A stretch of 64,000 nt of DNA. Source: Halichondria panicea (Eukaryota; Porifera; Demospongiae; Suberitida; Halichondriidae). A model generated the notes under the pieces. It saw nothing but the letters and a program-made list of their open reading frames with translations, was not told where the DNA came from and made no database searches. Positions 28,688 to 47,300 of this stretch are shown here, in pieces. The DNA is taken from assembly GCF_963675165.1 (NCBI RefSeq), contig NC_087378.1, forward strand, positions 5,203,205 through 5,267,204. The letters are read 5' to 3'. Made by a program: the position numbers and the translations under genes. Each line of letters starts with the position of its first letter. Within the stretch, counting starts at the first letter, position 1.

Positions 28688-31230
28688 TGACAATTAATTT
28701 TTACAGTAACTATAATTCGATTAAACCTCTTCATGTTTGTACGTATCATTGCACAATACCAGGAGTCATGCACTCCTGACAATACTTAAGTCTTAATTTA
28801 AGTCTTAATTTTTCAATCATTGCGAAAATGAATGTTGAGTTTTAATGGACATGGACACACTGCACAGCAGCTGGATGAGATATTGCTCTTCATGGGGATC
28901 TGGAAGGCGTTAGGCATGGCCATATATCTTCTTAATCTACCAACCACAGTGCAGTGGGTGTAGTAACACAGTATGGTCCAATAACATGATTTTCTGAAGC
29001 TTACAGAGAGTCCTTTCAGATGGTGTGTTAAAATCAAAAGTCTATTTTGGGCCTGGTTTTGAAAAAATACCGTGGGTATACCCCATGGAACACTGCATCA
29101 GGGGGGGAAAACACTATACACTACTCCACCAGCTAGGAACTCCATAGGGAAACCACAGTCATGTACTCACATAATTCTTATTTTGGCGAATTTAGGTACA
29201 TGTACGTGAACTGCCGTAAATTCTGATGTCAGTGGACAATACTACATATATTCCTGTTTTCATGCAGTTGCTAGGTCATGCCCAGGGTGTAAAGATAATT
29301 CCCTCTGATAAATCCCCAGCCAATCACATGCATGTGGTTGGCTTGCTAGTTAGAGCTGACAACTGGTTGGTGTTTTTCATCGCTAATGTGTTGCTGTTAT
29401 ATAAACAACCACATACCCAACATGTTTGGATATATTGAAGCTCAATCATTCACCTGAAAATGGCTGTGCAGTGTAGCATATTGCATAGCCAATCACATAT
29501 AATAGGAGATATAATTCAGTACAGGGCTAGCTCACTGTACTAGCTCACTGTACTAGCTCATTTTGCTGGTATACACCCTGCATTGCAATGTAGATAGTAA
29601 AGAGGTAGATATAATATTTTATGGGCAACTAAAATATTCTGGAAAATCTACGTACGTGACAGTTTTCAAAGATGCAATTTCACAACTACAGTGCTTGCAG
29701 CCTAGAGAGTAAAAAACGCAAATTTGCTGGTATTGGTACTTATGTGAATATCTTGTGATGGGAACATTTCTGATATATACCATTGTGTAGATAAAATAAT
29801 ACTCTATAAAATATACCCAAAATTTTTTCCATGGAAACCAAAAGTATGTGGTGGTTTATATAAAAGCAATAGTGGACAATCGCTTAGCGATGGAAAAGAC
29901 CATTGTCGGCTAAGGTGGCTAAGGTAGCACAACATTCCTAGCTGAATAGTTTATGTATTACAAACTGATTACTACTCAATTATCAAGTTTTTTGGGTGCC
30001 TTTTCGCTTAGCGATGGAACTCAAAAAAATTTGTCGGCGAAGGTCTAATTGTTTTTGTATAAAAAAATTTGTCCACATTTCCACTACAACAACTTTTGGG
30101 AAATATTTTTAAATAATGTTGTAGCTTATTCACACCTATACAATGGTATCAGCACAAATTCTTCTGTACATTGTATGTGATCACTATTATTATAAATGCA
30201 TGCAGCTGATGTCAAATTAAAAACACAAAATGCCTTATTTGCCAAAATACCCACTATAAGTTATAGTTATTATTTACTACTTCCCAGTATAATTATGGCT
30301 AATTATGGCTAATTATTATATACTTCTCGAATGCATACAATAAAAGTTCATCTTCAATTGTGATCACTTCAGTAACTTGCAACTGTACTATATATATGGT
30401 TGTAGTCTATACGTTTGTTATCATTCCTGTTAGCCTGGTACAACAGAAAGGGAGACGAGGAGGATCGAAGGAGGCGACAGAAAAGAAGAAGGAGGAGGAG
30501 AAGGAGAAGAGGAACGATAAGGAGAAGATTAGAGAGCTAAAAGGAAAGAAGAGGAGAAAGAGAAGCACTGGAGAGCAAAGTGGAACGAGAAGAGGCGCCG
30601 GAGAGCAAAAGGAAGAGGAAGAGAGGTGTTGGAAAACAAAGAAGAACGAGAGAGAAGAGAAGAGGCGCTGGAGAGCTAAAAGACGGTGAAAGAGGATCGA
30701 GGACAAACACAGAGGAAAACTTGCTATAGTGACTTTGTTCATAATGCAATTTCGTGATGCTCTGTATAACCTAAAAAGGCCTTGGGGGAAGAGAAGCTAG
30801 GGGACGACAGGGAAACAGAAAACCACACACAAACAATATTATTATACAATAATTATACAGACCATAACCATAATTATAAATAATTGATTATAGAAGTTCT
30901 ATAAGTGTATCGTTAATTAAATGGAAAGAGCTAAAACAACAAAAAGCTCGCGAGTGTGTACGCGATGGTGCATGTAGTCTTGCATGCTTGTTGTTGGGGG
31001 TGCTGCTCAATTTCAATTGCACCTTCTTAAAATCTCATCCCATTCGTTCATGTCAATCACATAATTACTCACAACATGCTGCAAAATTTACAGTTTACAG
31101 TTATTACAATTATATAGGGCTGATGTTATATAATAAAAAATATATATATATAATTATACGGAGCAATTCCAAATTTAGGGCAGCGTCAAGCTAATAATAA
31201 ATTACAATAGTCAAACTTGATGATGATGCG
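28688..31230. other. 2.5 kb convergent intergenic region
   Basis: This lies between the SLU7 and adhesion GPCR stop codons. It holds small tandem repeats (TAAGTCTTAATT near 28790, CTAGCTCACTGTA near 29530). A repeated CGCTTAGCGATGGAA motif (29881 and about 30006) precedes similar TGTCGGC(T/G)AAGG words. A purine tract is described separately. I see no supported gene. Confidence 0.55.
30449..30715. repeat. 267-bp purine-rich (A/G) tract with imperfect repeats
   Basis: The plus strand is almost entirely A and G. Loose repeats of CGAGAAGAGGCGC(C/T)GGAGAGC are seen. Translation gives a Lys/Glu/Arg-rich string in plus frames and Ser/Leu/Phe-rich strings in minus frames. Both are composition-driven. 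Such tracts can form triplex DNA. I do not call a gene. Confidence 0.7.
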
Positions 31231-31950
31231 TTATTGTGCAATGTCTATTTTGAAGTCAGATGTAACCATTTCAATTTCGGAATCTTGTTCGTGTGAATTT
31301 AATCGATTGTGCAGTTCCATTTTGAAGCGATCGCCATACGCCCTACTTCTTCTCCTAGAAGGAGGTGTGGCCAAAACTGGTGGACTAGCTCCGTCTAGAA
31401 ATTCATCATCAGAGTCAGCTGAAACATAACCTATCCCGCTCACACTGTGAATGTGGTATGAAGATCTCGTTTCTGACTCTTCAATTGTAGTGATTGGTTC
31501 ACCAGGTAGCTTTTTTGGCGATCGGCTCAATTTCAATTGGTCGACTAAGATCCCAGAATCAGCAGTAGATTGGTCCTCTCGAGTGTTGATATCTGACATT
31601 GGTGCGTGCACAGTTGATAATGAACTTGCTGGTAAGTTATTACTGGCAGTCATGGGCATACAAGGATGCTGAAACTGATCTGAATTGAGGAAGATATCAA
31701 ATGTATTCTGCGGCATAATGTACATAACGTCCCATGAGTTCATATTGAGTCTAGCCTCCCTATCAAGAGCCTTCAATGCTTCAAGGTGATCAGCACCGTC
31801 AAAATCAAAGCTTTCATCACTATCAATCTCATCTCCTGTTTTCCGAAGCGAGGGGTTTCGTGAAACGCGTCGAGAAAGGTTTCCCATCTCGTATGTTCCA
31901 TCCTTTGATTTCCTCTTTTTACAACCACAAGTTACAAGCCATAGATTACG
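31231..31950 (-). other. Adhesion GPCR: cytoplasmic tail
   Basis: About 240 residues after TM7, all in the last exon (31231-32290). It starts with a Cys/Lys-rich juxtamembrane segment (CGCKKRKSKDG), then Ser/Asp-rich and Ser/Pro-rich stretches with potential phosphorylation sites (RSPKKL, SRRRSR). It ends SDFKIDIAQ, without a classical PDZ ligand. Confidence 0.85.
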
Positions 31951-34900
31951 TGTTTCTTTCGCAAAGACAACGAAAATCAAGAAAATGAACAGCCCTTGAA
32001 GTGAATTAAAGATGACAAACAAATATTCAATGTAATTAGAAGTTCTCAGAACAGTAAAAGCACCGAATATCCACGTAAGACCGAATATAAGGATCACAGC
32101 AAGGATCGTAAAGATAGTTCGAACAGCAGCTCTCCTCTTCTTTACCTTGTTTCTATTTCGGAATTGCTTCGTGCTGTACCTCAAGATGATGATGAAAGCT
32201 ATAAAGAACATAATAAGGTTGAAGATTAGGATGCCAGCAATAGGCCCAAGGAATGACGCATAGAAGACAACACTATGGCTGATGAAGCAACTGTAATGTG
32301 AGAGAGAAAAATCAGTATTTCATTATCCAGTGACATTGATAGTCGATAAAGACTTACAATTGTTGATGAATGCTGAAGCTTCTGTCAATACCAATTGGCA
32401 CTACTACAGCTGGAATAGGCAACACTGCAAAAATAATAAATTTAATAACAGGAGTTTCTTACTAGTGAAAAAGCAGATCAACTAACTTACACCAACAGAT
32501 GAGTGAAGCGATGACAAAGTACGCAACAGAAGTCTTTGTAGCTGAAATGAGTTTCTGGAACATGAGCACTGCCTCCGCAGCCATCCACATCAAAGCTACT
32601 AGAGTGAAGTAGTGGATCAATGCAGAGATAGACACACACAGCTCGAATATCTCCACCCTTGCAATACCACATACAAATGCCACCAGCATCAGAGCAACAG
32701 ATAAACAGAACTGGATACGCAACACTGTAGAATCTCGTTTGCGAAGTTTACTGCAGAAACATTAAAGTTTGCTGACTTTAGCTATATTTATAGTAGCACA
32801 TACCTTTGCAATTCATACTAAAACATAATAATGGCACAAGAGTAGTCTACGTTACTAGTAGTATTTACCTGAATAGCAGTAATGTAATGACTGTCAGTGC
32901 TAGTCCCAGCAGTGATATACCAACTCCCACAACAACAATAGTGGAAAGGATGGGTCTTTGAAGCACTGGTGCTTCTGTAGGCTTAATACGAACATCCTAC
33001 AAAGCATGACAATTTAGAGTGATTAATAGTTCCACTAGGAAAGCTTCAAAACTCACCAGCAACACTGCAAAGTTAGTCAGGTGGCTACAGGAACAAGTAA
33101 CGACACCGTCCTTGTCTGATTCCAATTTGCATCCATTGGTGGTCCAGTTTCCTCTTCCACCTGTAATGAGATAATTATTATGTACCATTATCATTTTTCT
33201 GTGTTATAATTTTTAGTTTTCACTCACCAACAGCTGAGAAATCCCAAGACACACAAATTGGGTCAGAATAATTTCTATGGGTGACTGAAATAGTGTAGTT
33301 TATCGACTCCTTTAGATTCTTGATGGTTCTTTCTGATACAGTTGCCATTATAATGGGTGAAACTTCATGCGAAGCTGGACTCCTCAACACCTCAGTGCCA
33401 TTTGAAACAATGATGGGAAACAAGACACTCTTTTCATAGTAACCAAAGTAGAGTCCTATTGTATCGTCTGTTAGTTGTGAGGGGATCGAGTGAGGCAGAG
33501 AAATTGAGGACAAGAAAGTTCCTTCATCACCACTGCTTGAGGACAAAAGTCTCGCAATCACTTTTTGATCCGGGAGATGCACAAATGTAACAGTCTTTCT
33601 TTTCAGCTCATTCGGAGGAAAGATTTCATCAGACATGCCCTATGATGAAAACAATTTGTAATTAGAGTGTAACTATCAGTAAATTTCAGTAATACCTTTT
33701 CTACGGAGAATCCTAGGAAATTGTGGTTCTGATTCAAACTTTCAAATCCATCAACCTTGATGAGGCCCTCTGTGATTGCCTCCACAGCTCTGACAAGTCT
33801 ATTTCGAAATGAGAGACACAGTGTTAAATATTCTGAGCACACATACATGTACTATACTTACTTCACTGACTCTTCTTGTACTACATTAACTGGCCACTCC
33901 GGGAAGTGTAGTATGTCAACCACAGTCAATATCAACTCGTATGTCTGCAGAGCAAAACCTATTACTAAAATGTTTTCTAAGCATCAGCACGTCAATGCAT
34001 TATGACTTTAAGCATGCAATACTTGCGTAAAAAAACTTACCTCTGAATCGATAGTTGCAACTCCATTCGTCACATTCCTAGAATAGCCATAGAAAATCGT
34101 GTAGATTGGCCCAATAAATTCGCTCAATCCATCTGGGTTTTCTTTTCTGAGTCGATGAAGAGCTTTTATTAACTCCCGAAGATATTCTTTAGACAGACCA
34201 CCATCATCATCGGGCAGATTCTGTATTGAGAGGGTATATATCACATATAAAATTTGTAAGTCTTCATTGGCACTATACCTTGATAACATGTTTCAAAATA
34301 GCCTCAACACTGGCGTAACAACTCTCTACTTCAGGAGGACCCCAAACACCCTCAGGGCTACAACGTCTTGAAGCACTGCTATTGATGCATTCAAGAACTA
34401 CAACATCATTAGGGAATGCTTCTGGCCATTCAAAGTACCCTCGAGATGTGTCCGTATTTCCTCTCACGCACACAACTGTAAAATGTAAGCAGCAGATTGT
34501 TTGTGACTACTGATACAGACATTTTAATCAACCTGGCATTATAGGTATGATTAACCATCTCTTACCATCTTCATCATAGATCGCCACGGTTGCCCTCTGT
34601 GTACTCTCTGGAGTGTTGACTCCCACACTCAAGCTGGTAACAACAATGTCAAACCTCTCCACACTCTCCACAAGACGATCATCGAGCACTGACACCACAA
34701 CACATAGCGTTTTGTTCTCCTGACTAGGACTGAACTCAAGATTCCTCTCCAATGGGACATAATCGTGATCTACAGGTAACATGAGATCACCAGGTGTATT
34801 TAATTCTAGTACTCACAAATTCTCTAGAAAGGCTACAATTAGTAACTATAATTATTATACATAGTTGAACATGCATAGTTGATTTTAAAACTCACTGGCA

Positions 34901-37900
34901 GTTGCAATTGCCAGAGGACTGTTGGAAGATGCTGTAGCAACTGTGACGGTCACATTCCTCTCAATTTCCCCAGAGAGTTCCACGCACAAAGTGACACTTC
35001 TCTCAATTTCAATATCTTCACTAACATTAAGTAATAGCTCAACAAATCCCACAGTCACAATGTCGTTATCAATGATGTTGACAGTGCTGGTGTTGTCAAT
35101 GACAATGACACGAGGTGTGTAGCTGGTCGCTATGACTGTAAAGTATTCGGTAGTCTCAAGGATCGAATCGTTTACGATACTGATGAATGCACAACGTGTG
35201 CTGGTACCAGATGAAGGAGGAAATACAAGAGAGGCAGGGTCGCTGAAGGTGTAATCTGCCTGACCACCTGTGGGAAGGAAACCAATTAATGTATATCCGA
35301 TCTATCTATTGAGTAACACTAGCAATTATCTGCATGCACATCGAACATTCACGGTTTAATTACGCAAAAATAATCTATCTGCATGGTCACATTAGGCTGA
35401 CCTTGTTGGGCAGTAGCTGGCTGTGTTGAGATAAAGCATTCCACTTGAGTTTCGGTTCTCCCGGTCAACTCGATACACACCTGAGCTGGCCCCTCTCCTT
35501 CCTCCACTTCGTAAGAAGGCGCTCCAAATCTCAGAGTGGCCTCATCATCATCAATAATGGTCACAGTGGCACTTGGAATGTGGACACTGACTCCAGTGGT
35601 ACTTTCATCAATATATAAACTGACAGTGAAAGTCTCATTGGCTTCATATATGATGTCATCTATGACAGTGAAGTCTGCACACAGAGTTTGGTTGTCACTC
35701 TCAGATGCTTGAAACATGAGCGCAACTAATCTCACACTGGTGTAGTCAGCGCCACCTATATAGAACAAAAATGAGTGAAATAGAGCTAGATTCTAGTACA
35801 TTTTGTATTAAGTTTATCATTGAGACAAGGACATACCAGTTGCTGTGTTGGAACTGGTGGAGAGCATTACAGAGATACTCTTCTCAATGCGACCAAGCAG
35901 CTCCACGCATACTGGCTGGATTCTCTGGGCCTCCATGACTTCATACTTGCGTTCCTGAATCCCCATTCTCACTCCGTCATTGTCTAAGATGTATACATCA
36001 GCCACACTAGCAGCTGTAGTGTGAACCACACTGTCCTGAGAGGTCAAGAACACTTGGAACGACTCGGTGTTTTCCAAAACATTGTCATCGTTGAGGGCAA
36101 TAGACACACACTGCCTTCTAAGGCCCGTGTGGGAGATGCTCTCGTTGCGGAATAACGTGACATTGGATATTGCACGGTAATCATCATTCGGAGTAGCTGT
36201 AGTGAGGAAATAGGATATGTTAACGAATTTCACTTCTCAGATTGTATTACAGTAATAATATACGAAAGCAAAGCAACAGCATCTAGAATTTTTCACAGAT
36301 GATAGTTGTTAAACTCGACATAACTATGCGATGACAGAGGAGATTTTGCCCTACATAATAATTAGTGTATGGTTCAATTGATACAACTCCATGTGTACAC
36401 ATTTTCCCCAAATTTCTCTCTCTTACCCAGTGCCCCCTCTGCAGATGGTCTGGTAGAAACAAGAGCAGATACTTCTATCACAGCTATGCCCTTCATCAGA
36501 GCACAAACTTCAACGGCACTTCCCTCTTCATCAGAATATTCAGCTGCCTCAAATACCACTTCCACAACTGTGCACACACAAAATTAAGGATCAACAGGTA
36601 CATTGATTAGGTGGAGGTATACTATACATTAGTCAATAGTGCTTACTGTATCCACCACTTACAGTCATTGTCAGAGATGACAACAGTCAGCGTTCTGTTA
36701 ATCCCAACCGTGACTTGAGAAGATGAAATAACACGCAGCTCAATCGAAAACTCTTCCGGATTCTCAAGAATATCATCATCTATCACTGAAAAATCAGCAC
36801 ACTGAGCTTCTGTGATGTGGGCAGGGAATACAATGGGAACAGTCTTTGTGATGTAATCATCACCAGCCACAGCAGAAATGGGAAATGTTTGAAATAGAGC
36901 ATTAATGTCAAAGTCCGCCTCCCCGGAGAGTCGGGCACACACGTGTACTATCTCCTCGTCCTCAGACACAGATATTGTGCTCATTTCCAAGGTAATGGTG
37001 ACAACTGTTTGATACAACATTATCATGGGCATCAACATTAGTAATGTGCAACTTACAGTCATCGTCTTGGATAGCAACAGTGGCAGATGACTTTGTTTGA
37101 TCAATAACAATACGTGGGTCATTCGTTTGCAAGCTCAGATCCAGCTGCTTACTGCCACCCTCTTCTGTCACACTATCGTCAATGATTGTGATAGTTGCAC
37201 ACTGGGGACTGGATTCCGGCTTATCGGCACTGAGCCTATCAACAGGACTTAGCTGATACAAGGCAGAAAGCACATCTTCACTTGTTGGGGGGAGCTCAAT
37301 GGTTAATCCCTGAGTCTCAAAATCAACACCCTCTGTGAAATAAAGTATATTGAAAGTTACATGTAGCAGTTAACGTAGCAAAACCCCTTCACAAACAGCT
37401 ACTCTCCTACAAATATATGTAAGGTTCAGTGACGCCCCTAAGGACACATTCTAGTTGTTAGGTTGCAAACTTGTAGGTCTCACATATATTTGAGCTTGCA
37501 TGCATGTGTGTCTTTAAATTTACCTCTCATGAACTTTACTACGATTTACCTTTTGCAGTAACCTCCCTGGTAGATATGGTCACAGTAAATGGCTTGGTGG
37601 AATACCCTCGCAAGAAGAGACACACCTCAATATCCCCAACTCCCTCATTGACAACAAATGACTGCTCGGTAAAACCAATAGTTACCTCTGTGATGAGAAC
37701 AGATACCAAAAATAATTAAAAAGTTACACTCGAGGGCGACATTACATACCATCATTCTCCCTGATGATCACCGTAACAGTGCTGTGTTGAGTGACCTGTA
37801 CCCGTGGGTCATCTGGTATCAGTTGAAGCAGTAATTGCTCATCCCCCTCGACAACAGGGTCATCAAGCAGAGTCACACTGATGCTCGAACTTTGGATCTC

Positions 37901-40900
37901 CACTCTCTCTCCCACACTTTGGGTATTAAGAATATTGTTTGCGAAGTATATGGATTCCCCCCGAGCCTCATAATCTTCATGCTCTGTGATAGATGAATAG
38001 AAGGAGGAAGTATAATTATAATTATGTTATTTATGTACAGATAGTTTTGTATAACTGTTCATGAATTTAAATTCAATACTGGGATACTGTCACATGCAAG
38101 GGTGTGCCTGTGAACGGCATGCATTTGAGGGTGGGTACAAACGGCTCAACCCATGAATACCATTAACACATTCTATGCAGTGCTTCGGTTGATACAGAGA
38201 ATGACTACAACAACCATCATGGCATGCAGGTGCTTTTAAATATGTACACAGTTATGATAGCAGTCGAACATTTGCTTTGGAGCTCTAAACTCTGCTACAA
38301 TCAAGAGAAGTGAGTACCTGTAGCTGTTCCATTGACAGGGACCATTGATACTGAAACGGGAATGTCAACTTGACCTGATTGGCTTATGATCAGTTGGGTG
38401 CTCGCTGCGTTTCCTTCCTCTCTGACCTCAATTGTAGGGTCAGAAAAGAAAAATCCTATCCTCACAACTATAAAATAAGCAAGGCACTAATTATTATTCA
38501 CACGTACATAGCAATGACATGTATTTATACGTACACAGCGAATATTAAAGAATGTGTTCTCACCATCATTATCACGGATCAGGATGTCAGCAGTGTTCAT
38601 CGTGAAGGACACCAAACTATCGAAATAATCCACCGTCACACTGAATGTTTCTATTTCTGTTTCAAAGTAAGGGTCATTTTTGATGTCGATCAGAGTGCAT
38701 GCAGTGGTGGCATCAGGCAAGAAGATAATATTTTCAACTTCACGTGTAAAATCACCACGATCTCCATCAAAGACTGCAGGGAAAGTGAGTAAAACGGATA
38801 CATAAAGTATTTCTGGCAAAACCACACTTAAGCGGACAATGGTCCAGCACTTACAATTAGCAGTTCCCTCGAATAGAGTAGTCTCTACTACGATTGTCCA
38901 CTCCATTTCTCCAGTCCTATTGACACAGATGCTGATTTCATCTTTTGCTTGCCCTTCATTGAATTCGTATTGACTTTGTAGCAGGCTGAGTTGAATGTCT
39001 GCATGCATGCACCAGAAAATTTAAATCAGCACGAGAATATCTCAAGAGAAAAATTATTAAGAGTTAAGTTACTGAGTCAGCGACACATAGCAACTACATG
39101 AATGTTTACGCAGGCTTCAGAGAACTGCCAGGATTCGAGAATACATGTAACCTAATACCAGTGCGAATATGAATGCAGTCTAGACAAAAGATAAACAACA
39201 ATTATACCATTACCATCCAGATTATTACCAGTTTGTGATAATTACCTGCATGTAACTACAAGTATGACCTTCACTAGAAACACTTTGCGCCAAAACATTC
39301 ACTCCTACTCATATCTGACAACCACCCTTAGTGTCTTCAAATGACTAGCGCAAATCTATAAGGCTTGGGCCACACATGTATGTATGCTAGGCCAGACAAA
39401 ACAGTAGCACCATACGAATTAATAAACATACCATCATTGTCCGTGATGCGAACAACAACACGAGGTTTGGGAACAGAAACTTCCAGAGCCTCATCTTTGT
39501 AGATTTCGAAACCAAATATCTCTTCTCCCTCGTAGACTGTGTCCTCGATTATCGGTATCGTGAGACAATGTTGCTGTCCTGCATTGCTGGGAGTGAACTC
39601 CAAGACAATACTGTTGCCGGCAAAATCATCGCCATTAGTAGCCGGTCGGACTATATCTGTGGAAAGAGAAATAGTAATGTGCAGTACACCAGCTACAAAG
39701 TTTGGCTGATGCAAGCAAGAATTAAGTACCTCATGTGATCCATACAAAACGACAAAATTGGTTTTCTTGTATTATCTATCTCTGACTAACAGCATTATAG
39801 CGCAATTACTTTGAATGAGCTCAACAGGTTTCCTGGTCCTCAATGTAACGCTGAAGTTGCCACCCAACTGTTCCGGCGTCATGAGCAAACAAGTTGTGAC
39901 TGAGCCACCCTCCATCACAGTGTACCCATTCTGGTCGAAGGACAACACTACTCTCCGAGCTGTAAACATAGATTTATAGCATAATTGTTAAGCAGCAATT
40001 AACTAATCTGGTGCCAAACAACTAAAAGCAATTAAACACATGGCGCACAAATATGTAATAAATTAACAAGCAGCATGCATACCATCGTCATCTTGTATCG
40101 TCACTGATACCCGAGAAGTATCCACAGAAATTCTCTCTTGGGAAAAGGCATTGCTGAAAGCAAAGTAGAACGCCTCCTCATTCTCAAAAATCTCATCATT
40201 TTGAACTGAAATTGTTGAACACACAGTTGATGTTTGCACAAATACCAACTCTCTATTGATTGCAGGTGAGAAGTCTTCATTTTCTGTAAGAAAAAATTCG
40301 GTCCATAAGTACGTACAGCACATGCATGTACATTGTAGGTGCAGCTAGTTAGACGTACCGCCTAGCAAAAAACCTCAAGAGACATATTCGCGTATGCATT
40401 TGACCACAATATGCCATGTATAAGCATAGACAGAATACAACAGCACTATATAATACCTATAGATCTATCTAATGCTTGGTGTTACCTAGAGCAGTTCCTG
40501 GACTGGTGTTGTACGCAACAGTGACAGTCTTTTGTGATGTGACAATGTTCCCATTGCTGTCAGTGATCTTTCCACAGACTTGCACAAGACGTTCCTCCTC
40601 AGACACCACCAATGTAGAGGTGAGGGGAGCCATGATACCAACTGTAGAGAGGCACATTATCTTTATGACAGTGAATACAACAAAAATGGTGTTTGTTTTA
40701 TGGCACGATGGCAAAGTCGGTTTTATAGTAACAACGTGAACAAGCGTTCTCATACCATCATCATCCTGAATTCTTATGACAGTCTGTCGTGGCAGTACAG
40801 CGATAAATTGGTTGGTATTGCCTGTAGGTTGCAGTAATAGAGTAGCATATTCCTCATCTTCAAGTACTGCATCATTTTCGAGTGTAACTGTAATGCACTC

Positions 40901-43815
40901 AGTGTACTGTGCAAAGAATGACAGTTGTCTATTGTTCACGTTGTAATCGTCATCATCTGTGAAAATGTATCCATGTGCAAGCAATGCAAACACTCATTCC
41001 ATAGCATTAGCACTTGATGTTTACCTAATGGCATCTAAGATAGACAACATCTCAACACATTCCAGCTGGCTATTCAGTTACCTGCAGTCTGTAGTCCGGT
41101 TACTATTGACGCAGTGATGGTACTTGAGAGCATTCCACTGAGCACGGAGGCACACACCTGAAGGCTGCCACTGACCTCAGATACAGTATGAGCAGTTTGA
41201 TCCCAACCAAGAATCACACCTACATGTACATAATTATTATGACCATAATTATTTTATAGCATGCTGAGCACATAAATTTCAAACACATAAAACTAGAGTG
41301 ATGGGCATGATGTAATACTGGCAATAATACTCAGCTGTCACATAATAGTTTTGCATGTGTGTCATGCAGTTGTCTCTCACAGGAAGAGTATATTATAGAC
41401 TCCATGGCACCATTCAGAAATTGTAATCATTACACACACCGCCAGATAAACTGATTCACACGCACCAGATTAAGCATAGCAACAATGGTTTAATTTATGC
41501 TACAGATTAAGTTGAAGGACATGCACAGGAATGCAATCTAGGTCATATTTTCATTGCTTAATGACTTACCAAACTATGAATACAATGAACTTGGCCACTT
41601 AGCATTTTTATTGTGTATCTAATTCAACATTGATTAGCTATCATCCTTTCTCTTCATGATCGATTCAACAGCTTGTCTTCTAAAACAGTGGCTACACTAT
41701 AATAATAGAATCATGGTACATACTGCATCCCTCGCTCATAACTCTTAAACATACTGTATAGCTACAAGTATCCCATAAAATGTAGGCTATAGCTATAATT
41801 TATAACACATGTTGTTTTAGCCACACCAGTTCTTGGAAAATGATTTCGCCAATTAATTAAATTGTGAGGCATTCCTAGTAATGATAAACTGGCCCTAAAC
41901 TGCAGTGAACATTGCACCCAATACTAAAGTCTATCTAATAGGGATTACTAGTGCATGTATGTACCTGGCAGTGTTGGTATGGTGTCCACTCTCCACACCC
42001 ACAGTCCCTCCTCCCCAGAGTTCCCAGTGTCAGTGATGTCCAGTACATCCTTAGTGCCTGACGAGGGAAGGGTGGTGTTTTGGTCACCCCAGCTGAGGCC
42101 CACTTGAGCAAACGGGGAGCCAGAAAGTTGCATTCCTCCAGTTAAGTAGTACACGATGATGTAGGACTGCGAGCCACTCGTAGCCAGAATACATTGAAAT
42201 GTGTTTGTCTATGATAGTGGGACACAATATAAACAAAGCATTCAAACACTGACATACCAATCAAGCCAAGACTATAGAGTGCATGCGGAATGGCCATCCA
42301 TGAAAGTTAGAACAGTGTAGGTACCACAGGAATTTCAGGAATATCAATTTTAGCTATAGGTCAGTTGAAAGGTTGAAACTCTACGCTGATATAAGAGCTT
42401 CCCCACACACAAGCTCTACATGCCTCATTGGGTGATGTCAGAAGCTGAGCAATGCTAACACATTGTCAACACACGTTCCAATCCTCTGACATACACAGTT
42501 CTCAGTAAAACATTAAAGTTAAATCAACATAGGGTACTTACTTCCATAGCACTGCCGATTCCTTGCATGTTTTCCCATGTCACGACAACAACTGATGAAA
42601 CTGCAGACAATGTACTTGGCAAAGCAGTTCTGACAACCGAGGTGGCCTTAGTGAGATCAGCAACATCCACAGATTCTTTAAAGTACACCTGGCCACTCTC
42701 TGAGTAGTTGTAACTGGTCCAAAATGGTGCTATCAGGGAGGGATCAGAGCGGAATGTCCCAGGGAGAAAGTCGAAGTCTGCTCCAAGAGATATCAATCCA
42801 TTAGAATTCACCTGAAGTCAATAAGACATATGACACAATCCTGCATAAAAACCTACATAGCAAACTTCTCGTGTGAGTAATTAATGTGTACCGCTCACTG
42901 CATAATGGTCACATCACAAGCATATATAGTTATAAAATTATGTACATGCATGTAAAAAGGGATTGACTGTGTACCTGTAAAGAACTCCTTTAATACTACC
43001 TGCAGCAAACTACTACTGTAGGGAATGATGAATAATGTTGGACAACAGGCATGATAGGCTAAAATTCCAGATTAGTAACTTAGTCTACAATAATTTTGCA
43101 CAATGTACGGCGCTCGACTCTTCTACGTGTGTTACGTAGGTACATCCTCAGAGTGCAAAAAAGAGAAGACACTGGCTGGTGATAATTATGATACAAAGAA
43201 AGGTTTGGCATACATATAATGTATTTGCACTCTAGTTCTATAGATGCACAATAAATAAATTATTATACATGTAACGTATTCGCATCAATTTTGCTTCCCT
43301 GCCACAAGTACAGGTCAAATATAGCAGTAGCACATTGATTCAGCTGTTGCTTGAGCTTCCAATACAAATAATGTAGGTGATCAAAAATAATGTATAGGTG
43401 ATTGATCCATAAAAGTGGACATTAGTGGCCGGTACAATACCATCCGAACCAGTATAGAAAACATGCATACCAAACACACAAACAGTCGCTCGCAGTAACC
43501 TCTATGGTTTTAATTGTTGTCTGCATAACATGCAGCCCATGCACAAAGGGTATAGACTGTATACACATGCAGGCCGGAGCAAGACAGCTATATAGATTTT
43601 GCATGTTATAATTATAATTATGATACACTCACATAGATTGAGTTGAACTCAAGACCATTGTATCTAAATGAGTTGCTGAGCTGGAGAAGAGAGCTAGCAG
43701 TCTGTCCTCGAGGAACCACTCTCTCCCCATAACTGAAAAAACTTGAGACTGAAACAGCTTCAGCTTGAAGTGCAAGCAGGGTCAACACAAGAGCATATAG
43801 ACCTAGTCTTTGCAT
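31231..43815 (-). CDS. Adhesion GPCR with NIDO, 11 calx-beta repeats, HormR, GAIN/GPS and 7TM
   Basis: Thirty-one exons run from ATG 43815 to TAA 31231 and join without a frame break to 2428 residues. The order is signal peptide (1-20), nidogen-like domain (to about 232), eleven calx-beta repeats (about 233-1564), HormR (about 1565-1630), GAIN with GPS (to about 1924), seven membrane helices (about 1935-2185) and a cytoplasmic tail of about 240 residues. Calx-beta repeats bind calcium and form extended adhesive ectodomains. The GAIN domain self-cleaves to expose a tethered agonist. The nearest known type is ADGRV1/VLGR1, which also has many calx-beta repeats. That receptor carries LamG-type and EPTP domains rather than NIDO and HormR, so orthology is not claimed. 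Upstream of 43815 the frame stays open without an ATG. It is followed head-to-tail by GTF2F1, 567 bp away. Confidence 0.93.
31951..32996 (-). other. Adhesion GPCR: seven-transmembrane domain (class B2)
   Basis: Exons 32869-32996 (TM1), 32491-32750 (TM2-TM4), 32358-32424 (extracellular loop 2 region) and the start of 31231-32290 (TM5-TM7). The segments match secretin/adhesion-type helices. TM3 has HYFTLVALMWMAAEAVLM, TM5 IAGILIFNLIMFFIAFII, TM6 VILIFGLTWIFGAF and TM7 IFNSLQGLFIFLIFVVF. The FGLTW and NSLQGLFIF signatures are diagnostic of adhesion GPCRs. Confidence 0.95.
33057..34220 (-). other. Adhesion GPCR: GAIN domain with GPS cleavage site
   Basis: Exons 34041-34220, 33862-33944, 33696-33798, 33228-33639 and 33057-33160. 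The GPS ends in PICVSWDF, then GNWTTNGC, then VTCSCSHLTNFAVLL. The four Cys and two Trp expected of a GPS are present. The HL|T triad is intact, so autoproteolysis and a TNFAVLL tethered agonist are predicted. Confidence 0.95.
34279..34475 (-). other. Adhesion GPCR: hormone-receptor motif (HormR)
   Basis: A single exon encodes NTDTSRGYFEWPEAFPNDVV, a Cys pair and C-S-P-E-G-V-W-G-P-P-E, then SCYAS. This is the HRM/HormR pattern next to the GAIN domain in several adhesion GPCR groups. Confidence 0.85.
34566..41219 (-). other. Adhesion GPCR: eleven calx-beta repeats
   Basis: Seventeen exons separated by introns up to about 550 bp. Each repeat has an A half (an Exx.V.VCVxLxG core ending near T-A-G) and a B half (starting near D-Y and ending I-x-D-x-D-G). 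Exons: 41082-41219 (A1), 40756-40956 (B1), 40486-40641 (A2), 40083-40283 (B2), 39810-39959 (A3), 39432-39656 (B3), 38855-38998 (A4), 38564-38773 (B4), 38318-38467 (A5), 37750-37983 (B5), 37550-37687 (A6), 37057-37332 (B6), 36663-37004 (A7+B7), 36427-36567 (A8), 35837-36196 (B8+A9), 35402-35755 (B9+A10), 34896-35267 (B10+A11) and 34566-34769 (B11). Every intron is phase 1. The acidic DxDG ends are the Ca-binding positions of the fold. Confidence 0.92.
41965..43815 (-). other. Adhesion GPCR: signal peptide and nidogen-like (NIDO) domain
   Basis: Exons 43633-43815, 42542-42811 and 41965-42208. A hydrophobic leader (MQRLGLYALVLTLLALQAEA) is followed by a NIDO-type fold. Supporting landmarks are VNSNGLISLG, LIAPFWTSYNYSESGQVYF, VVVVTWENMQG, NTFQCILATSGSQSYIIVYY and VGLSWGDQ. 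These 'NGxISLG', 'APFWxD/S' and 'FQCxLxT' features are typical of NIDO in nidogen and mucin-4-like proteins. Confidence 0.88.
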
Positions 43816-44382
43816 CCTTGGTTCGGATTTTATCTCAAAACTCTCTTCAACCACTTTCAGGTCGCTACAAATGCACTCCAGTCATTTGGAGTGTTTATTA
43901 TAGCATGCAACAGTTTAACAGTGAATTCTTTCAGCATTCTATGGCCGCCCACTACAGACAGCAGTATGACACTTACCGACAATAGTTCTGTGTTTACACC
44001 AATTTAACCACATTCATCAGTACCCACTCACTTGCTACATTTTAGGTCTTTGATGGTCAAATTGTGGTATCTAATAGCTGTGGAATGTACAAAGCTTATG
44101 GTGGTGTAGACATAACCATTAACTTTCAACATTCAACTGAAGCACCAGGTCTAAAGCGATTAATAAGGTAAATCTTGGCAATAAACACTGAGCAAGTAAG
44201 CTAAACACCCAGGTGCTATCATAATTTCGTTTGAGTCACTGGATAGACCATAAATATTACAGCTCTGTCGATTGATCATAGTGAAAATGGAATCATGATA
44301 AATCAATTAGAGAAATAACAAATTACACAAGAATGTACAACAAATTACTCTCCTACTCTCCCTCCATACAACAGTGCAGTTA
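43816..44382. other. Spacer between GTF2F1 stop and the adhesion GPCR start
   Basis: Both genes are on the minus strand. This 567 bp must hold the receptor promoter and the GTF2F1 3' UTR. No repeat or extra gene is evident. Confidence 0.5.
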
Positions 44383-47300
44383 TCATGAGGGTGGCTGCTT
44401 TAATGACAGATAAAGCTTCCCTTTAATCGTCTGTTTCTCGACATTCTTAAGGTTCTGTATTATCTGGTGCAACTGATCCACAATTTTCTTCTTGTCCATA
44501 TCAGATTTCTTGCTAGTGAACTTTCTCACAAGATCCTTAGATGTGATTGGCCTTCGAGACAGATAATGCTTTACTTCTTCGTCGGTTATAGTACTTAGGG
44601 AGAATTCCTTCTTGGGTTTTTTTGGAGGTGGCTGAGGGGAAGCGGAGGGGGCATTGGACGAAGTGTCTGATTGTCTCTCTCTCTCCCGTTTTACTCCTTT
44701 GAGACTGCTATCTTCACGGGATGTCTTAGGAGACACAATGACTGGGTCTGGGAATAATCAGTCATGATTATAATTATTTATAAAAATGATTACTGTGGAA
44801 CACACTAATGGGAAGGGCATCATACAAAATACCGTGTGACATGGATTAGTGACCAATTACATTCATAACGGATAACTAAATTATCAGTGCATGGAATGTG
44901 TAACCTGAGCCACTGATAATATTCACTAACGTATATGTAGTTCCACCATTCAACTGTTCCGGATAGCCACCAACAGCAACAACATTGACCTTAATGGGAA
45001 AGCATCCCAGGAATGAATGAACATGGGTTCTAGGAGCCAAATACAAAGTAATCTACAGATGTGCACACTTGAGAGGGTGCTAATGTGGGAAAACAGCAGG
45101 AGTAATTAAGTTATTGTCCAGAAGCAAGGCCGATAGATAGCAAAACCACAATTTGGTTGTCAGCTGAATATCATTATGCTTCTACCTAGGAGGAGACTGT
45201 AATCATTCATACAACCTGTACAGCCAGCCAGAACAACAAGGACTATAGCAAAGACAATAATTATAACCCAAGTATGAAGATTTTCCGCTGGTGGAGCATA
45301 GCAGCATAATGATATTCATAGATGCCAGCCTACTGTGGTCTTGTGGCTCTGGAGAACTGTTGTGCAAGCCAGGTAGAGGCAACAGCAGGCGCACATTCAT
45401 TAACACCTTAACATTTCTCAGAGGAGTATTAAACCACCTGGTGGTGTGGCAAGTAAAAGGAGTGCATCACATAATACTAACTATAATGCATCAATAGGTA
45501 AGCACATTGCCAAAAGCTAATCCAAAATCTGTCTAGGTATGAATGTTTCTACAGCTTATCTATACCTTTGATCGTGTGCATGCCTTATCTAACGGCAGAG
45601 AAGGTTGGACATGCGTCATAAGTCATGTGTGATTTTCTTCACAACACTCCCAACGTTACAATAGATACCGCATGTGGAGGAGGTCCGACATGCTTGCACG
45701 AATCACTACAAGTTCAGGTAATTGTGGCCAATTATAACGATTTTGAAAGCTTTGCACTCAGAGATTCTGTTCTTAGTCTCTATAAAGCCTTCTATAAGTT
45801 TGCATTGACAACAAAAATGCCAGTTCATTAAACAATCTGATGCACGTGATGCAGTGGCGGACACAGGAATATTGAATATTGAAAGAGGGGGGGCTATCAC
45901 CAGAAAATTTGCAAAAAAAAGGTCAACTGTTTTTCGAGTGTAGCAATTTTACTAAAAAAAAAGGTCAACAACCTTTTGGTTGGGTACTGTATGTTCAGCA
46001 GGATAGACTAGCTAGCAGCACATTAGGACACCAGACTAGCTAGATTCAACAGCCTACAACTAAATGGTCTGCTGAAGCATAGCACGTGACATGATTGCTG
46101 TTCTAAGCTCTAAGCAATACCCACTTCGGTAAAATCCAGGGAACGAGCCAGAGCTGCAGTCTGTCTAGATGGAGGGGGGGGGGGCTACTTGTATCCGCCT
46201 CTGTGATGGTGGTCCAACCTCCTCTGATCTAACTAAAAGTTACTAGGAAAGGTCAGAAGTAAAGTAGCAGACCAATTAACAACGGTCTGTTGGCCAATAT
46301 CTTGTCATTGGTCATTGGCTGTTAGCACTTAATACAGAATGGTTTTTGTGTGCACACATCCCAGCAGCAGTTTCCTTTGAAGAATTAACACTTCTAAAAC
46401 AGCTGTTTAAGTCAGAGGGTGTGACAGACAACCCAAAACACGGTCTAGTACAAACATCACCAATTAGTAAACTGAAAACATTTAGCAAATACAATACAGA
46501 ATCTTCAAAATGAAGCCACAGAACGCAATGATGTATTTACGTACTCAACCTGCACCACTAACAGAATGTTTATTACATCAAAAGACAGTCATAATGGGGA
46601 ATAACAAAGGGAACTAGGATGCACTCAACAAATAACTCAGTCCCCATTGTGAGCATAAAGTGCCTACAGTGTCATAGCAAAACCTACGTACAAGTACATG
46701 TGCACCAATGCTCACCTTTGTCAAATGGTTTCTCAATGTCAATCTCATCATCTTCCTTCTCAGACTCAGTCTGTCCGGATTGCTTCTTTATTAAAGCATT
46801 GAGCTCCTTGCCTACATGTAAGTCACAATAAGCTAAATGCACGTTTCTTAACGGTACAGGTATGCACTTCTAAGTGATAATTATGGTGAATGCTATCACA
46901 AACAGGTTTTTAGTACAAGTACTGTAGTGCTAGAAATGTATGCGTGATACGCTATTTATGTGAGCGGCTATCATATCGCATACTTTTGTATAGCACAATA
47001 AATGATTGAGAAACTAAGTTAATTGCGAATATCGCAATTTTATGCTCATACACAATTTCTAGCACTACGGTACGGTGCATGTAAATCCACTACAGCGAAA
47101 ACATTCCATTGTTACTTCTTTGTGTCCAAGGACAATCTCGTCTGAGAACTACATGTATTAGTGTAGTACCTCCATGAAATACTCACTACTCGATTTTGAT
47201 TTGCCTACAGGGACTCTACATACCACGCTATTAACGATTACCTGTATCTTATGGTGACCCATCTCAATTCTACAGCCCCTTTGGTCTACAACAGTGCCCA

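Follow-up and report, generated by a model that had tools for sequence, protein, structure and literature searches.

The 64,000-nucleotide stretch of Halichondria panicea DNA analysed here (contig NC_087378.1 of assembly GCF_963675165.1, positions C2:5203205-5267204 in our contig numbering; hereafter the window) was found to carry one intact adhesion G protein-coupled receptor (GPCR) gene, which is confirmed as a gene prediction. We put a probability of roughly 0.7 on the reading that this gene encodes an adhesion (class B2) GPCR working as proposed below, in which an ectodomain composed of NIDO and Calx-beta domains is fused to a HormR-GAIN-seven-transmembrane (7TM) module.

The gene was modelled with an exon-chaining script, which combines codon, donor and acceptor scores and keeps the frame across introns, run on positions 30800-44300. 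At an intron cost of -4, after retraining on the first model, the script returned 31 exons encoding 2428 residues (Table 1), the same exon and residue counts as those of an earlier model-generated annotation made from the letters of the window (the sequence-only reading), which had described a single intact frame. These counts, but not the exon list, were known before the script was run. The stiffer first setting gave 25 exons and 2329 residues, stop included, and lowering the intron cost to -2 raised the count to 34 exons (2453 residues), adding weak upstream pieces and splitting exon 19 while keeping the other internal exons. A multi-gene version of the chainer, which covered the entire window on either strand with the cost again set to -4, left the 31-exon gene undivided. 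All 19 introns that bound the 18 Calx-beta exons (introns 3-21) were in phase 1.

The sequence-only reading had called for a profile search with NIDO, Calx-beta, HRM, GPS and 7tm_2, and a Pfam scan of the 2428 residues at an E-value of 0.1 indeed matched five families, four of them far above their cut-offs and HRM below. NIDO was matched at residues 58-226 (113.5 bits, cut-off 25), followed, as that reading had placed them, by Calx-beta in 11 stretches (394 bits, cut-off 27), and then by GPS at residues 1879-1923 (56.5 bits, cut-off 22.5) and 7tm_2 at residues 1941-2178 (107.8 bits, cut-off 20.6). Judged by the size of these profile scores, chance is ruled out for all four families. The calcium-binding domains of Na/Ca exchangers in PDB matched most of the Calx-beta part with a best E-value of 1.8e-7; by pattern only, a terminal D-[DNE]-D and a [ND]D-x3-E were each present in 10 of the 11 repeats.

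The GPS, with its H-X-S/T motif, lies just before the first transmembrane helix. Its site reads C-S-C-S-H-L-T-N-F-A-V-L-L, and the tethered agonist starts at T1918; both the HL/T site (H1916-L1917/T1918) and the agonist TNFAVLL were intact, as had been read from the letters. In a hydropathy plot the N-terminus was signal-like and residues 1935-2184 formed a hydrophobic bundle; Calx-beta domains 1 and 8 each showed a short peak as well. In a phmmer comparison with solved adhesion GPCRs, ADGRG2 (E 1.4e-46), ADGRG6 (1.8e-43) and ADGRL3 (4.8e-40) were the best matches, across the end of GAIN, the GPS and the 7TM part. The protein therefore shows the marks of an adhesion GPCR, namely 7tm_2, a GPS with H-X-S/T before the first helix and a long modular ectodomain of NIDO and 11 Calx-beta domains, and not those of a class B1 secretin GPCR, in which HormR precedes the 7TM part without a GPS.

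Table 1. Features of the receptor gene (positions in the window) and related receptor loci with Calx-beta exons upstream (contig positions, M = million bases)
Feature	Position	Strand	Details	Basis
Whole receptor coding span	31231..43815	-	31 exons, 2428 residues; span includes stop codon	Exon chainer, single- and multi-gene
Exon 1	43633..43815	-	Start codon, hydrophobic signal-peptide-like start, beginning of N-terminal region	By eye and hydropathy
Exons 2 (42811-42542) and 3 (42208-41965)	41965..42811	-	Most of NIDO, residues 58-226	Pfam, 113.5 bits; genome search
Exons 4-21	34566..41219	-	Eleven Calx-beta domains, residues about 233-1564	Pfam, 11 stretches
Exon 22	34279..34475	-	Residues about 1566-1630, HormR-like, with four cysteines and two tryptophans	Alignment and model; below Pfam HRM cut-off
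Exons 23 (34220-34041), 24 (33944-33862), 25 (33798-33696), 26 (33639-33228), 27 (33160-33057)	33057..34220	-	GAIN region	Pfam match to GPS part only
Exon 27	33057..33160	-	Most of GPS, H1916-L1917/T1918, start of tethered agonist TNFAVLL	Chainer and Pfam
Exons 28 (32996-32869), 29 (32750-32491), 30 (32424-32358), 31 (32290-31231)	31231..32996	-	7TM residues 1941-2178 and cytoplasmic tail of about 240 residues	Pfam, phmmer
Receptor loci with upstream Calx-beta, contig C1 (n = 4)	16.379-16.391M, 16.410-16.427M, 16.429-16.447M, 16.461-16.467M
Receptor loci with upstream Calx-beta, contig C15 (n = 3)	5.432-5.440M, 5.442-5.451M, 3.872M		Single hit at 3.872M

On this architecture, the GAIN domain would cleave itself at HL/T1918 during maturation, with the two halves remaining bound to each other. 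Judging from the domain families, the Calx-beta rod, stiffened by calcium, would hold the NIDO cap at a distance from the cell surface, and the cap may bind the extracellular matrix or a neighbouring cell. A ligand or tension would then free the tethered agonist TNFAVLL, which would enter the 7TM bundle and start G protein signalling. The terms "lineage-specific", "calcium-binding" and "self-cleaving" used by the sequence-only reading are plausible as predictions.

The HormR part of this architecture was assessed by several means. Exon 22 was aligned with six related exons of the same genome, and eight columns (four cysteines, two tryptophans, an arginine and a glycine) proved invariant in all seven, six of which matched HRM at an E-value of 1. 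A profile built from the seven exons retrieved BAI3, in its HormR and GAIN part, as the first match in PDB (E 0.00045). An AlphaFold2 model from the seven-row alignment had a predicted local distance difference test score (pLDDT) of 86, and in a Foldseek search the best 50 of 260 rows were all class B or adhesion GPCRs, with a best E-value of 0.06. The end of the HRM match (residue 1617) and the start of 7tm_2 (residue 1941) were 323 residues apart; since the reported spacing in adhesion GPCRs is 280-330 residues (PMC12716839), this was counted for the adhesion GPCR reading.

A number of observations weigh against the reading proposed above. With the full-length query, HRM matched residues 1574-1617 at 15 bits, below the cut-off of 26.2, and shorter queries raised the score to 18.5 and 23.4 bits, still under it. 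The second PDB match of the seven-exon profile was complement C2 (E 0.0027). The HormR fold is supported by VIA-align, in which latrophilin-1 HormR-GAIN ranked on top (Z 6.6, root-mean-square deviation 1.6 for 49 aligned residues) and CRFR2 was level with it (6.5), but by the tool's own warning values of Z below 8 may mean only a common arrangement. Because the HRM score lies under the curated cut-off, the domain is labelled HormR-like and not HormR; from sequence pattern, place and predicted fold together, exon 22 appears to encode such a domain, and in this form the HormR domain that had been placed before GAIN was retained. As for GAIN itself, the evidence comprises its GPS part plus length and place, and not the whole fold. 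An intact H-X-S/T is no guarantee of cleavage either, given that BAI2, with HLS, is uncleaved (PMC13062082). Downstream, neither AATAAA nor ATTAAA was present from the receptor stop codon to position 30300. Finally, intron 3 (745 bases), which separates the NIDO exons from the Calx-beta exons, contains an AATAAA (position 41612), and reading on from exon 3 into this intron meets a stop at once (TLPGTYMH-stop, 41948-41965).

With these last two signals, NIDO could be made as a short soluble form or be transcribed separately. We weighed whether the NIDO exons constitute a separate short gene, or belong mainly to a soluble alternative transcript, such that the receptor proper starts with Calx-beta. 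The AATAAA is the sole one in the receptor introns, in which 3.8 would be expected by base composition. The exon 3/4 junction is in frame and in phase 1, as are the following introns, and exon 4 starts, in the model, inside the first Calx-beta domain. The multi-gene chainer made no split here, even though it is an over-splitter elsewhere, having cut the receptor at C2:6941k into four pieces with one break within the 7TM part. Furthermore, the window GPS is the only one of the 68 GPS matches in the genome with a same-strand NIDO match no more than 15 kb upstream, against 0.3 expected at random places (11 contigs, those with a known length); within 80 kb upstream the count was 8 of 68 against 1.1 expected. 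These eight were the window receptor, six matches from three SRCR-bearing receptors and one at C1:4.529M, and NIDO heads the three related receptor loci as well. We thus regard a separate NIDO unit as unlikely. The next gene upstream, on the same strand, ends at 44383 with a 3' end encoding TFIIF-alpha (52.6 bits), and in the 31-exon model the receptor therefore begins with NIDO as its first domain.

To place the receptor among its relatives, we rely on family searches of the whole genome (131,455,214 bases, 39 contigs), in which at least 164 exons matched 7tm_2, 110 NIDO, at least 151 Calx-beta and 68 GPS, the candidates scored being 150 of 227 for 7tm_2 and 150 of 645 for Calx-beta. The 7TM part of the window receptor shared between 30% and 45% identity with those of 17 other loci (both extremes from partial rows), the best full row being at 44%. 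In a tree of these 18 sequences, from which four single-exon receptors meant as outgroups are absent and in which C13_1772764 (110 residues) and C7_1510110 (122 residues) are partial rows, the window receptor grouped with the partial C13 row at a support of 0.75, and the next node had 0.48, which leaves the C13 row as a candidate nearest sister.

The DNA upstream was read at 11 of the 17 related loci. Same-strand Calx-beta exons were found upstream at seven (Table 1), and NIDO stood at the head of three others, before EGF/SRCR exons (C2:6.941-6.970M, C2:6.972-7.022M and C11:1.998-2.079M, the last of which starts with NIDO, EGF and SRCR by Pfam); at the remaining one, C1:16.449-16.451M, neither NIDO nor Calx-beta was found upstream. 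Thus, among the 12 receptors compared, both domains were present in the window receptor only. The models of the related loci are rough, as the single-gene predictor can run across gene boundaries, and NIDO was assigned to the same receptor as the 7TM part at the three SRCR loci from their common strand, their order and the EGF/SRCR exons that these loci share, not from a clean model, with C2:6982-7001k and C11:2008-2068k unread.

Several further observations were made in this genome. Two GPS motifs each were present at C2:6941001-6951000, C2:7008001-7022000, C11:2068001-2079200 and C15:3868001-3879000, the outer motifs being HLS (two), HLG and HAG and the inner ones HLT; both C2 loci have a HormR-like exon ahead of each of the two motifs, a tandem HormR-GAIN arrangement. 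In the receptor clusters at C1:16.37-16.48M and C15:5.428-5.4525M, 7TM parts that are close in the tree occur with differing ectodomains, which comprise Calx-beta arrays, SRCR with LDLa (Pfam, one C15 locus) and others that are Ig-like or Sushi-like by eye. A Calx-beta match at C6:2382998-2383231 lies within an open reading frame 10,065 residues long.

With regard to origin, the NIDO and Calx-beta exons would have been added upstream of a HormR-GAIN-7TM module that was already there. Such a fusion of ectodomain and receptor is considered the most likely origin. NIDO and Calx-beta exons co-occur at non-receptor loci of this genome, namely C2:264-282k, C1:15.273-15.296M and C4:6.575-6.579M, where no 7TM match was found in the stretches read (C1:15.27-15.30M, C4:6.574-6.584M) nor nearby among the matches listed; at the C1 and C4 loci the two kinds of exon may each time form a single gene. 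The locus at C2:264001-282000, on the minus strand, encodes NIDO, EGF and a long Calx-beta array in which about a dozen repeats are nearly identical one-exon copies, and its product looks like a matrix or aggregation-type protein that has undergone recent expansion.

These NIDO-Calx loci would be the place to seek the source of the receptor ectodomain, with repeat identities too low to show it. Ten of the 11 repeats had a match in BLAST comparisons, and for these ten the NIDO-Calx loci were favoured above the other receptors, a preference biased by whole repeats sitting in single exons. Over the second halves of the repeats, mean identities to the NIDO-Calx loci were 27% for C2 (23 usable repeats), 25% for C1 (14) and 22% for C4 (1), those to other receptors were 22% for C1 (31) and 23% for C15 (5), and that among the window's own repeats was 26%. 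On these values, an origin by copying of Calx-beta repeats is not claimed.

We also considered whether the protein, instead of being a structural adhesion receptor, acts in self-recognition or as a receptor of immune type. The SRCR repeats of sponge adhesion GPCRs have been tied to immunity by domain content (PMC4302439), and sponge aggregation factors, which carry Calx-beta, control allorecognition and adhesion according to a review (PMC10815962). The 17 other 7TM loci share just 30-45% of 7TM residues with it, so that the window receptor does not belong to a recent receptor expansion among them, and a function in immunity or self-recognition appears improbable to us. More speculatively, this lineage might have built adhesion GPCRs from its own matrix and aggregation-type proteins by moving their NIDO and Calx-beta ectodomains onto HormR-GAIN-7TM modules. 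The receptors would then pair with matching NIDO/Calx-beta matrix proteins encoded in the same genome, and contact with matrix or self would be converted into G protein signals; we consider this a long shot.

The ectodomain had been described in the sequence-only reading as unlike that of vertebrate ADGRV1, which carries LamG and EPTP domains and is not known to have a HormR, and this distinction holds, since EPTP and LamG found no match in the receptor protein in the Pfam scan at an E-value of 0.1 and a HormR-like domain is present. In comparisons with PDB chains whose length leaves room for little beyond the 7TM part, the receptor scored 96 bits with ADGRL3, 95 with ADGRG2, 92 with ADGRL2, 85 with ADGRE1 and 45 with ADGRV1, followed by ADGRF1 (43.5), ADGRG5 (34) and ADGRG1 (29). 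Descent as an ADGRV1/VLGR1 orthologue with a diverged N-terminus, for which the Calx-beta array on an adhesion GPCR, an ADGRV family reported to be older than animals (PMC12716839) and the three chains scoring lower still than ADGRV1 could be adduced, is thus very improbable in view of the 7TM scores and the domain content. Membership of the ADGRV1 subfamily was likewise rejected, as the 7TM part is not nearest to ADGRV1 in pairwise scores (45 versus 96 bits for ADGRL3) and the EPTP/LamG domains were unmatched.

The suggestion that the gene represents an undescribed system did not stand: the receptor belongs, as a domain-shuffled member, to a large family already known, with Calx-beta upstream at 7 of the 11 related loci, NIDO at 3 of the 11, and NIDO and Calx-beta together elsewhere without a 7TM match. 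In the literature searched, it is an unusual receptor, a new combination of known parts within a known family. HRM-GAIN-7TM is an ancient module that predates animals, and Calx-beta is among the ectodomains common to filasterean adhesion GPCRs and those of choanoflagellates or animals (PMC12716839). Amphimedon is reported to have 40 adhesion GPCRs, of which at least eight bear HRM and two bear SRCR repeats; a term search of the main text of that report found neither "Calx" nor "NIDO" (PMC4302439); the searched text portion of a 2026 adhesion GPCR review contained no "nidogen" (PMC13197933). An adhesion GPCR with both NIDO and Calx-beta was not found described in the literature searched, where a figure of Halichondria panicea receptors, whose legend names NIDO, Calx-beta and GAIN, may show one (PMC8242945). 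If transcribed as modelled, the gene would enlarge the set of ectodomain parts known on adhesion GPCRs by the nidogen-like domain, and one genome would show related GAIN-7TM cores under NIDO, Calx-beta, SRCR or EGF ectodomains. Early-animal adhesion GPCRs would then be a place to study how ectodomain shuffling yields receptor specificity, and such proteins are candidate matrix receptors in a sponge, an animal without nerves.

Compared with known systems, the window receptor shares with the HormR-GAIN-7TM adhesion GPCRs (ADGRG2, ADGRG6, ADGRL3 and BAI) the GPS with HL/T, the tethered agonist, 7tm_2 and a HormR-like domain about 320 residues before the 7TM part, and differs from them in its ectodomain of NIDO and 11 Calx-beta domains, which was not met in the literature searched. 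With ADGRV1/VLGR1 it shares the Calx-beta array borne by an adhesion GPCR, whereas the LamG, EPTP and HormR content and the nearest 7TM relatives differ as described above. The Amphimedon adhesion GPCRs Aq712029 and Aq715659 carry SRCR repeats (PMC4302439), and their SRCR-bearing counterparts in the present genome are, like the window receptor, NIDO-headed; such receptors have EGF and SRCR repeats in place of Calx-beta, and those of this genome have two GPS motifs. Lastly, extracellular Calx-beta domains are shared with the sponge aggregation factors (PMC10815962), from which the window protein differs in that its Calx-beta array is mounted on a 7TM receptor.

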